Translations under genes and position numbers: made by a program
Origin: Candidatus Methanoperedens sp.
GTDB lineage: Archaea; Halobacteriota; Methanosarcinia; Methanosarcinales; Methanoperedenaceae
DNA length: 47,051 nt
Direction: 5' to 3'
Assembly (NCBI GenBank): GCA_027460465.1
Contig: JAPZAV010000132.1
Coordinates: forward strand, 1-47,051
Shown: positions 7,299 through 27,531 of the stretch, one piece after another
Position numbering within the stretch: the first letter of the stretch is position 1
How the letters are laid out: each line of letters begins with the position of its first letter
Notes under the pieces: generated by a model
The model's input: the letters and a program-made list of their open reading frames with translations, nothing else
Database searches by the model: none
What the model was told of the DNA's origin: nothing

Positions 7299-7312
7299 TT
7301 ATGTGCCGATAG
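7205..7312. repeat. dispersed intergenic repeat, copy C
   Basis: Contains CTCGGCGCCCAGAG, TATGAATGCGTGT-TACACA and CCCAGGGAACTC, matching the second half of copy A (near 801-862). It then has TTATGCATTATGTGCCGATA, resembling the middle of copy B (TTATGCGTTATGCGCCGAAA). It therefore mixes modules of both copies. Its end runs into the last codons of the HTH regulator gene. Confidence 0.5.
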
Positions 7313-7727
7313 ATGCCTCCCCAGAATATCCACTCGTTTCCGACCGCGCCATGCTGACAATCATTTCCTTCAGTCGCTTGATTTTCAATTGTATCTCATT
7401 AATTTCTTTCATCTTTTGTTTTTCGAAATTACCGATTATCTCTTCAAAATCCTTTTTGAGTGAGTATACCTTAAAGGGTCTGCCTTTTCCTGGTTTCTTT
7501 TCTTCCCGTTCGCTTATCCAATCTCGTTCTTTTAAGTCTCTCATAGCGATGCTTACTTCAGGCTGGTGTAATCCTGTTACTCTCTCAAGATCCACTGATG
7601 TAGCCTCTTTCAAATTTCGAAGATAACTCAACGTCTTTGCGATAGGTCTGCTCAAGCCCAGAGAATTAAGTACATCTGTTATTTCTTCGTCTGTTTCATC
7701 AAACTGTTTTCTAACTGTAGATTTCAT
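7299..7727 (-). CDS. winged-helix transcriptional regulator
   Basis: A 142-residue predicted transcriptional regulator of the archaeal MarR/TrmB-like type. The winged helix covers residues 20-95, with a recognition region LHQPEVSIAMRDLKERDWI and a basic wing REEKKPGKGRPFKVYSL. A coiled-coil dimerisation helix follows (about 95-130). It is a clear paralogue of the regulator at 15994-16368, with near-identical QPEVSIAMR and EEKKPGKGRP. The ligand is unknown. It has its own AT-rich promoter region around 7740-7790. The far C terminus (SGYSGEASIGT) overlaps the repeat and differs from the paralogue, suggesting the end was altered by the repeat. Confidence 0.75.
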   Translation of the reverse strand: MKSTVRKQFDETDEEITDVLNSLGLSRPIAKTLSYLRNLKEATSVDLERVTGLHQPEVSIAMRDLKERDWISEREEKKPGKGRPFKVYSLKKDFEEIIGNFEKQKMKEINEIQLKIKRLKEMIVSMARSETSGYSGEASIGT

Positions 7728-15993: not shown

Positions 15994-16368
15994 TTATTTG
16001 CTCAGTTCTTTCAGGCGCTTGATGCTCGCCATCATGGCCTGGGATTCCTTTCTTTTCTGGTTTTCAAGGTATTCGATAATAGAATCGATGCTGGTCTTGA
16101 GTTGATAGATCTTGTAAGGTCTCCCTTTCCCTGGTTTCTTCTCCTCCCTTTCTCCTATCCACCCGAGTTCTTCCAGTTCACGCATGGCGATACTGACCTC
16201 GGGTTGCCTCAGATCAGAGCCCATTTCAAGGTCTCTGGAAGTAACTTCTTTGACATTTTTCAGATAGGTGAGTACTTTTGCGACGTTCCTTTTTAAGCCC
16301 AGTTCTATGAGAGTGTCGGCGAATTCTTCGTCGGATTTGTCAAGAACATTGACTGAAAGACTTTTCAT
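15994..16368 (-). CDS. winged-helix transcriptional regulator (paralogue of 7299-7727)
   Basis: A 124-residue regulator with a winged helix at about 20-95. The recognition region LRQPEVSIAMRELEELGWI and wing REEKKPGKGRPYKIYQL are nearly identical to the 7299-7727 protein, so both probably bind similar operators. A C-terminal helix (NQKRKESQAMMASIKRLKEL) would form a dimer coiled coil. It converges on ribB, with its own long AT-rich promoter region at 16369-16470. Regulated genes are unknown. Confidence 0.75.
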   Translation of the reverse strand: MKSLSVNVLDKSDEEFADTLIELGLKRNVAKVLTYLKNVKEVTSRDLEMGSDLRQPEVSIAMRELEELGWIGEREEKKPGKGRPYKIYQLKTSIDSIIEYLENQKRKESQAMMASIKRLKELSK

Positions 16369-25924: not shown

Positions 25925-26791
25925 ATGAATAATGTGGTCGCTGTAGATGAATTTACAAGATATTGTATGCTGACTCTTGAGGTTTATTTTGGTCAGATGT
26001 CAGATGAAATCATCACCAAAATAAAAGCCAGGAAAAGCTTAAATCAGAATTCAACTCCAGACGATATCAAGCAATTCATTGATCTCATAGAGAGCAGCAT
26101 CAGTCTTTTCTCAGGGAAGAATAAAGCAACCGAGATCTGCAATATTCTCAGAACAAAGGCATCAGAAATGATCGGTGCAATGAATGCCCGGGATACCGCT
26201 ATGAGCAATATTATTGATAAGGAAATCAATGCTTTTCTTTCCAGCAACTCTCTTCCTGCTGAAGTGGATATTACCGATTATGCAAAATACCTGGCTTTGA
26301 AATTTGGAAGCAGTGCCAACTCAGTTGAAAAAGATCTGATCGATAAAGTAAAGGCGCACGTGAGAAGAGGGATCAGCACAAAGATGCTGAAAGAAGAGAT
26401 AAATAAATTCCTTACAAAATACTCGCAGCCAGGGAAAACAGATGTTGATGATTTTGTTCATTACATCAGTTTATTAAAATTGAATTTAAAGGAAAGCGAA
26501 GTCCGAGAACTTGTTGAAAATGAGAGATTATACCGTAAATTCCATGGACCGGAAGAAGCAACTGATAGCTCTGAGCTTGGTCAGTTCATCAACCTTGTGA
26601 AGGCAAGTTCGGATAAGGAATCAATCGGGAAATTAATGCAGAAACAGGGGCTCAGCTACCTTATTAAAGACGATAAAGGTCTGTCTGATAAATCCTTATC
26701 TGAATTTGTGGAGCTCATGACACCCAATGAAAGAGATATGAAAGATGCTCTGGAAGGGATGGGGCTCAAGCATCTGATCAAGAGCAAATAG
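25925..26791 (+). CDS. unknown all-helical protein with internal repeats, paralogue 1
   Basis: A 288-residue soluble, almost certainly all-alpha protein, not recognised. It has two internal repeat units: about 97-145 (DKEINAFLSSNSLPAEVDIT, DYAKYLALKF) and about 155-206 (KEEINKFLTKYSQPGKTDVD, DFVHYISLLK), the second ending ENERLYRKF. An earlier segment (SLNQNSTPDDIKQF) and the ENERLYRKF block recur in the next gene product. A shorter C-terminal part (EFVELMTPNERDMKDALEGM) has its own Phe/Leu pattern. No membrane segment or signal peptide and a single Cys pair only. It looks like a scaffold. It is followed by its paralogue eight bases later. Confidence 0.75.
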   Translation: MNNVVAVDEFTRYCMLTLEVYFGQMSDEIITKIKARKSLNQNSTPDDIKQFIDLIESSISLFSGKNKATEICNILRTKASEMIGAMNARDTAMSNIIDKEINAFLSSNSLPAEVDITDYAKYLALKFGSSANSVEKDLIDKVKAHVRRGISTKMLKEEINKFLTKYSQPGKTDVDDFVHYISLLKLNLKESEVRELVENERLYRKFHGPEEATDSSELGQFINLVKASSDKESIGKLMQKQGLSYLIKDDKGLSDKSLSEFVELMTPNERDMKDALEGMGLKHLIKSK

Positions 26792-26799
26792 GAGGAAAT

Positions 26800-27531
26800 A
26801 TGGCAGACTATTCGCTGGAGCGGATCAAAAAATTACTTGAAAAAAATTTTGGCAACATTGGTGTAGAGATATTTCAAACCTCTCTTTCGACCCTGAAGAT
26901 CAGCAAGAATTCATCGCCTGACGAGATTCAAAAATTGAAATCAGAACTGGAGGAAAAGCTTACCAGATTATTTGGAGCAAATGAGGCAAGAGAATTTTTC
27001 AATGAATTGGATGAGGAAATAACCAGGGAGGAAAAAGCCTTAAAATCTGAACTCAGGATCGAAGTAGACAAGTTCTTTATGAATAAAGGCATCCCGGGAG
27101 AATCTGATATCAATGAGCAGGCAAAAGATCTGATCTTGAAAGGTTTAAATGTTGATGAAAGCAAGGTCACTGAAACAATGAGACAGCTTTCTAAAGAAAA
27201 GATCATATCAGCTCTGAATGAAAGCATAATCAACAGTGAGATCAGATCTTTTCTTGATAAATTTCAGTCATATACAGATGGAGATACTGAGGATTTCATA
27301 AATTACCTCAAAAAGATCTCCAGATTAAATGCAAATGACAGCACTGTAAAAGACATGATCGAGACGGAACGGCTTTACAGGAAATTCAATGACATCGGTC
27401 AGGAAGATCCCTGGCAGGTGAAGATCTGCAGGCAATATGTTGCTTTGATGAATTCAAGCAAGAGAAATGATTATAGATATCTCTCGCTTGATGATTCAAA
27501 TATAAAGATGTTAAAGAAGATCGCTGTGTGA
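26800..27531 (+). CDS. unknown all-helical protein with internal repeats, paralogue 2
   Basis: A 243-residue charged helical protein with GGAGG five bases before the ATG. It is collinear with the preceding gene product: SKNSSPDEIQKL (36-47) matches QNSTPDDIKQF. RIEVDKFFMNKGIPGESDIN (about 86-105) matches INAFLSSNSLPAEVDIT. NSEIRSFLDKFQSYTDGDTE (145-164) with DFINYL and ETERLYRKF (188-196) matches the second unit. It arose by tandem duplication and has diverged, lacking the last domain of paralogue 1. No cysteine or membrane signal of note. Role unknown. Confidence 0.75.
   Translation: MADYSLERIKKLLEKNFGNIGVEIFQTSLSTLKISKNSSPDEIQKLKSELEEKLTRLFGANEAREFFNELDEEITREEKALKSELRIEVDKFFMNKGIPGESDINEQAKDLILKGLNVDESKVTETMRQLSKEKIISALNESIINSEIRSFLDKFQSYTDGDTEDFINYLKKISRLNANDSTVKDMIETERLYRKFNDIGQEDPWQVKICRQYVALMNSSKRNDYRYLSLDDSNIKMLKKIAV

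Follow-up and report, generated by a model that had tools for sequence, protein, structure and literature searches.

A helical repeat unit of tandem Candidatus Methanoperedens proteins is related in sequence to the N-terminal extension of PilB3-like pilus ATPases

Introduction

Several kinds of regulators have been linked to archaeal pilus loci, namely FlaH, MinD/FleN and KaiC ATPases, and a helical partner of KaiC has also been noted (Makarova et al., PMC4858521). MinD2 of Haloferax influences where the machinery for motility and chemotaxis is placed, with effects on archaella and chemotaxis arrays, no direct partner having been demonstrated; specifically, no direct interaction with HVO_0596 has been demonstrated, and deletion of HVO_0596 was without phenotype (PMC11588486).

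Here we analyse two adjacent genes, P1 and P2, located in a 47,051-nucleotide stretch of DNA (contig JAPZAV010000132.1, positions 1 to 47,051; henceforth the window). The host, Candidatus Methanoperedens, is a methane-oxidising archaeon. Among described proteins, the PilB3-like ATPases (T2SSE; Pfam PilB3_N/PilB3_C) have a homologous helical unit of about 50 residues (F-L...P...D-I..F), which lies N-terminal to the Pfam PilB3_N region and belongs to no Pfam family, but P1 and P2 have two such units and no ATPase domain. The locus can further be likened to archaeal MinD/FleN ATPases and their operon partners (arCOG00589, PMC4858521; Haloferax MinD2/HVO_0596, PMC11588486), as a small protein gene adjoins an appendage-linked MinD in relatives, the likeness to HVO_0596 being one of gene position. 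Similarly, P1-like paralogs resemble the KaiC-linked helical partners (arCOG03758, distantly DEATH-like; PMC4858521) in gene context, each being a helical protein directly beside KaiC, whereas the P1 family has domains of its own. Finally, Roadblock/LC7 (MglB-like) proteins occur in the same neighbourhoods of relatives, but P1 and P2 have no match to a Roadblock domain and P1 is all-helical.

Results

Two tandem paralogs share an N-domain and a repeat unit

The start of P2 follows the stop of P1 after 8 bases, with a GGAGG just 5' of it, and given this gap and motif the two genes look like a single transcription unit. An earlier note, made from the sequence of the window, had read them as tandem paralogs of 288 and 243 aa with internal repeats. 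Both ORFs were found where it had placed them, and phmmer, shuffling and hhalign agreed on the paralogy and on repeats of about 50-55 residues. Specifically, P1 and P2 matched each other with a phmmer E of about 1e-19 to 1e-20 and a local score of 230 (maximum of 80 in 300 shuffles), meaning that their paralogy is not a chance resemblance, while R1 and R2 within P1 scored 70 (maximum of 48 in 1000 shuffles). In the single P2 sequence Q1 and Q2 are weakly alike (8 of 1000 shuffles were equally good); these units are supported by family alignments, from which the whole domain map was drawn, through the R2-Q2 and R1-Q1 comparisons (Table 1; hhalign values throughout are pairwise and not database-scale).

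The motifs which the note listed as common to both proteins are present (NSTPDDI/NSSPDEI and ENERLYRKF/ETERLYRKF). The (I/V)xxFxxxxxxPxxxDI unit that it counted twice in P1 does occur there in two copies, INAFLSSNSLPAEVDI and INKFLTKYSQPGKTDV, but the second ends in DV, not DI. As the N-domains and the repeat units are homologous in sequence, unrelated folds of P1 and P2 are unlikely.

Table 1 Features of the P1/P2 locus, in window coordinates
Feature	Coordinates	Strand	Basis
P1, 288 aa (N-domain, R1, R2, C-tail)	25925..26791	+	ORF; orthologs in Methanoperedenaceae; AlphaFold2 pLDDT 85.6
N-domain of P1, aa 1-87, with a homolog in P2	25925..26185	+	hhalign N1-QN 98.5%, E 2.5e-15
R1 unit, aa 95-150	26207..26374	+	hhalign R1-R2 96.9%; against PilB N-termini 95.5%
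R2 unit, aa 152-208, conserved E.ERL..KF block at its end	26378..26548	+	against PilB N-termini 97.5%
P1 C-tail, two helical hairpins (aa 215-250, 253-288), the final one ending GMGLKHLIKSK	26567..26788	+	R4 profile
P2, 243-aa paralog (N-domain, Q1, Q2; without tail)	26800..27531	+	ORF, sequence; P2 clade 100/100
Q1 unit of P2, aa 81-139	27040..27216	+	hhalign with R1 94.3%
Q2 unit of P2, aa 143-198	27226..27393	+	hhalign with R2 99.5%, E 4.5e-23
SatD-family gene, 3' of P2	27667..28329	+	Pfam SatD E 2e-19

In relatives, a free-standing protein of 78 aa and a Roadblock-like protein, the latter in its C-terminal part, bear a distant likeness, weak and transitive, to the N-domain. A profile built from these two found two P1-family proteins through their N-domains (E 1e-5 and 9e-5), but its direct hhalign comparison with the pooled N-domain family was weak (8% or less), and we take this sequence kinship as suggestive only.

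P1-family proteins were found in 20 of 34 Methanoperedenaceae genomes, and named records with P1/P2 relatives belong to Candidatus Methanoperedens and its relatives; outside Methanoperedenaceae, the profile matches were R-unit proteins and pilus ATPases. In the family tree, P2 orthologs grouped in one clade (100/100) that excluded every P1 and P1-like paralog, which places the P1/P2 duplication before the divergence of the Methanoperedens species sampled. One genome (G015) encodes a natural P1-P2 fusion of 510 aa, which reads as a P1 with P2 units after it, and also, in the place of P2 (F2-F1-X), a protein which still has a P1-type tail (L036). In another genome (L071:6650-7506 in G009), P1 consists of two ORFs with a broken frame next to a whole P2, reflecting either an assembly error or decay.

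Structure prediction and family searches

AlphaFold2 modelled P1 (pTM 0.62; pLDDT in Table 1) as essentially all helix, as the earlier note had expected, and the R1-R2 pair (pLDDT 83.8) as five helices. In the model each unit is laid out as a helix, a proline loop, a second helix, a turn and a long helix that continues into the next unit. No hydrophobic segment above 1.6 was found in P1 or P2, in line with the absence of membrane signals noted before.

The proteins were also said to have no known family, and indeed searches of Pfam, NCBIfam and PHROGs gave only sub-threshold matches for P1 and P2. Neither protein had a match to the T2SSE P-loop ATPase domain or to Pfam Robl_LC7, a sequence search of the PDB gave no convincing match, none of the Foldseek matches to the whole of P1 was significant (TM of about 0.2 at most), and the viral contigs searched contained no P1/P2 match. 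The strong match to a characterised family that would have spoken against the earlier reading was thus not found. A PADLOC match to Drt9 (E 3e-4, 17.7 bits) covered residues 104-208 only and was judged to be a chance match of helical segments.

The repeat unit heads PilB3-like pilus ATPases

About 60 N-terminal residues of the PilB3-like ATPase encoded near P1 in relatives are homologous to the R unit. When compared with a set of 14 PilB N-termini drawn from three Methanosarcinales families, R2 reached an hhalign score of 56.3 (column-shuffled mean 10, maximum 17); Q2 aligned to the same set at 96.6%, and R1 likewise (Table 1). The R2 profile found the PilB proteins of two genomes with E 6.8e-8 (G067) and 2.6e-9 (G017), and in a search of genomes across the class the full P1/P2 profile (A1) reached the PilB N-termini of five (G036, G067, G073, G015 and G017; E 2e-5 to 5e-4). 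Three of the proteins concerned (L054, L121 and L122) were confirmed as ATPases by Pfam T2SSE, with PilB3_N and PilB3_C above or near cut-off. Based on these profile comparisons, the N-terminal extension that PilB3-like ATPases bear across Methanosarcinales is a homolog of the repeat unit, a relationship that is new.

Leaving aside the P1/P2 family and its tail, the other A1 matches with E under 1e-3 were a short protein with two units (G046), a multi-unit zinc-ribbon protein (G038) and 92-aa R1-like ORFs (G013 and G017). The zinc-ribbon protein, with several R-like units (L126:6151-7236 in G038; also L023), represents a further unit architecture. In the window's own genome, an ORF at a contig end (C95:787-927) has the unit (E 2.3e-4) where PilB would be expected, beside MinD (C95:1143-1928).

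The extension is variably present. Five genomes (G003, G008, G012, G018 and G020) encode a PilB3 without the R unit, and all of these except G003 keep P1, meaning that a contact between units cannot be essential. Loci with a PilB3 that has no N-terminal R unit (L059, L061, L131, L136 and L137) come from genomes with and without P1, which may reflect repeated loss or divergence of the unit.

The position of the unit on an ATPase bears on two other explanations of what P1 and P2 are. One takes the R unit for a homeodomain-like helix-turn-helix, and P1 and P2 for DNA-binding regulators. Foldseek did list tandem homeodomains first for the R1-R2 model (DUX4, probability 0.91, E 0.083, not significant), and the A1 profile weakly matched a POU domain (E 0.0077). 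However, no Foldseek match reached E 0.001, the match across both units had an rmsd of 14 A and a TM of 0.36, and no Pfam HTH family was matched above cut-off. Moreover, the pI values are acidic to near neutral for proteins and units alike (5.95 for P1 and 5.23 for P2, median about 6.4 for R1/R2, 5.05 for the PilB N-termini), and the fusion of the unit to a pilus ATPase argues for protein binding; given this charge and this fusion, we regard DNA binding as distinctly unlikely.

The other explanation, in which the earlier note saw a scaffold or filament part, draws on the tandem helical repeats, the P1-P2 fusion and the all-helical model. While the word scaffold is compatible with our results, the filament part of the claim found no support: there are only two units per protein and no open-ended array, the multi-domain order is conserved, the R unit also occurs singly at the end of an ATPase, and nothing points to polymerisation. 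We therefore find a structural role as scaffold or filament very unlikely for P1 and P2.

P1/P2 relatives recur beside MinD and Roadblock genes

Comparison of gene neighbourhoods, which the earlier note had proposed, identified MinD, Roadblock and KaiC genes as recurrent neighbours. P1 lies next to MinD and divergent from it in eight genomes, although gene order within the genus is in part inherited and these cases are not independent. In four of them (G007, G005, G002 and G009) the order P1-F2-F1-P2 is followed, on the other side of MinD, by PilB3-PilC (past the contig end in G002); the same position beside MinD is occupied by P1-F2-F1 in G031 and by P1 alone in G012, G008 and G014. G015 has P1 three genes from MinD, on the far side of genes for a HAMP-domain membrane protein and a protein of 78 aa. 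In three further genomes (G020, G004 and G021) the P1-F2-F1-P2 block is located elsewhere, behind another gene pair, meaning that it was held together through a move; the order is thus kept in seven genomes and in at least two different genomic places. Direct adjacency of P1 and P2 varies accordingly, with F2 and F1 intervening in those seven relatives. Both F1 and F2 are membrane proteins with no family match, and no F1 was detectable in the window's genome.

F2 and F1 also stand in a row with two Roadblock-like genes in G034 and G038 (another family) and in G032 (another genus). Profiles of these genes reached Roadblock structures in the PDB (E 0.002-0.004), and one reached Pfam Robl_LC7 just under cut-off. 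The row (L049:2980-4745, L128:6195-8094 and L129:4081-5941) is conserved across Methanosarcinales families.

Tandem R units are linked to an orthologous MinD in a second archaeal family of the phylum (f15) as well. In each of four f15 genomes, a protein of 237-323 aa with two C-terminal R units is followed directly 3' by MinD, which is 64-66% identical to the MinD of G015. The A3 profile matched the f15 proteins with E 1.5e-4 to 3.5e-11, and their full tandem aligned with that of the window (MCR-A3) at 98.4% over 106 columns (hhalign score 83; shuffled maximum 17). The row 5' of the tandem-R gene comprises Robl_LC7, DUF2226+Robl_LC7 and an unnamed gene (confirmed with Pfam in two of the four genomes). 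A correspondence of the f15 N-terminal part to the P1 N-domain was unsupported (hhalign 0.2-0.5%). In the f15 loci (L144-L147), the Robl_LC7 row adjoins genes which by eye resemble a hydrogenase operon.

The window's own pair is not beside MinD: in this genome P1/P2 are on a different contig from MinD and PilB. Many Methanoperedens genomes (G001, G003, G006, G016 and G019) keep MinD without P1. Taken with the PilB3 proteins that lack the unit, this means that P1 and P2 are an accessory, evolving layer.

What does adjoin the pair in the window is a SatD-family gene, on the same strand and 135 bases 3' of the P2 stop. The earlier note had placed the pair beside a SatD-type module, but the link is not conserved: SatD is absent from every other P1/P2 locus read, and its orthologs lie on contigs other than that of P1 in G005, G007, G017 and G020. 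The neighbour is incidental, and the idea that P1 and P2 are part of a SatD regulatory module is largely refuted, leaving it an extremely slim chance.

KaiC-linked and HEAT-like relatives

P1-like paralogs lie directly 3' of KaiC genes, with gaps of 9-22 bases, in the window's genome and in two others (G013 and G017). Since a helical KaiC partner beside archaeal pilus loci was predicted by Makarova et al. 2016 (PMC4858521), P1 and P2 might be a general 'second component' of KaiC-type ATPases, the MinD neighbourhood being inherited synteny without function. Yet the KaiC-linked paralogs are confined to one sub-branch of the P1 tree, no KaiC neighbours P1 or P2 themselves in the loci read, and the MinD link recurs in family f15, so that we consider this explanation unlikely.

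The final hairpin of the P1 tail is found again at the C-terminal end of HEAT-like proteins from many genomes (R4 profile, L037-L047, E 1e-6 to 1e-16), and a P1-type hairpin could possibly be a common docking tail on unrelated proteins. HEAT-like proteins of about 296 aa (L038-L047) and L037:4570-5775 (G015) share the pattern LEGMGLKHLI..K; in L037 the hairpin has HEAT repeats before it and, after it, a stretch that by eye resembles Roadblock, with no Pfam Roadblock match there. Elsewhere in the window (7299-7727 and 15994-16368) are two paralogous small regulators, putatively of HTH type by eye, whose cluster relatives adjoin HEAT-tail genes in L042 and L043.

Discussion

Because the repeat unit caps a pilus ATPase and relatives of the pair adjoin MinD and Roadblock genes, P1 and P2 are probably adaptors for where or when pili are built. 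Stated in full, the proposal is that they are lineage-specific helical adaptors of the cytosol through which MinD/Roadblock (or KaiC) signals would reach the ATPase that assembles the pilus; it is based on sequence homology, gene neighbourhoods and fusions, and we give it about an even chance of being correct. The R unit would be a protein-docking module, and P1 and P2 would form a soluble pair, which F1 and F2, where present, may place at the membrane. Through the pair, which may physically bind MinD or PilB3, the machine that assembles type IV pili would be coupled to a positioning ATPase of the MinD type and to signalling of the Roadblock type, with an effect on the placement or timing of pili. 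P1-like paralogs may serve KaiC-type ATPases likewise. Such a role fits the regulators described around archaeal pilus loci (PMC4858521), which provide context rather than a test.

A broader and more tentative reading, which we hold to be possible but doubtful, is that the R unit docks MinD-type ATPases (KaiC-type in the case of the paralogs), both on the pilus motor and on P1/P2, and that MinD and Roadblock proteins would set the place or time of pilus assembly in methanogen-related archaea. To our knowledge, little has been established on how the MinD and Roadblock proteins of archaea find their cargo. The R unit offers a concrete candidate contact, common to a pilus motor ATPase and to proteins encoded repeatedly next to MinD, Roadblock and KaiC genes. 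In addition, boundaries are now given for domains absent from Pfam in Methanoperedens, an archaeon whose cell-surface biology is of environmental interest.
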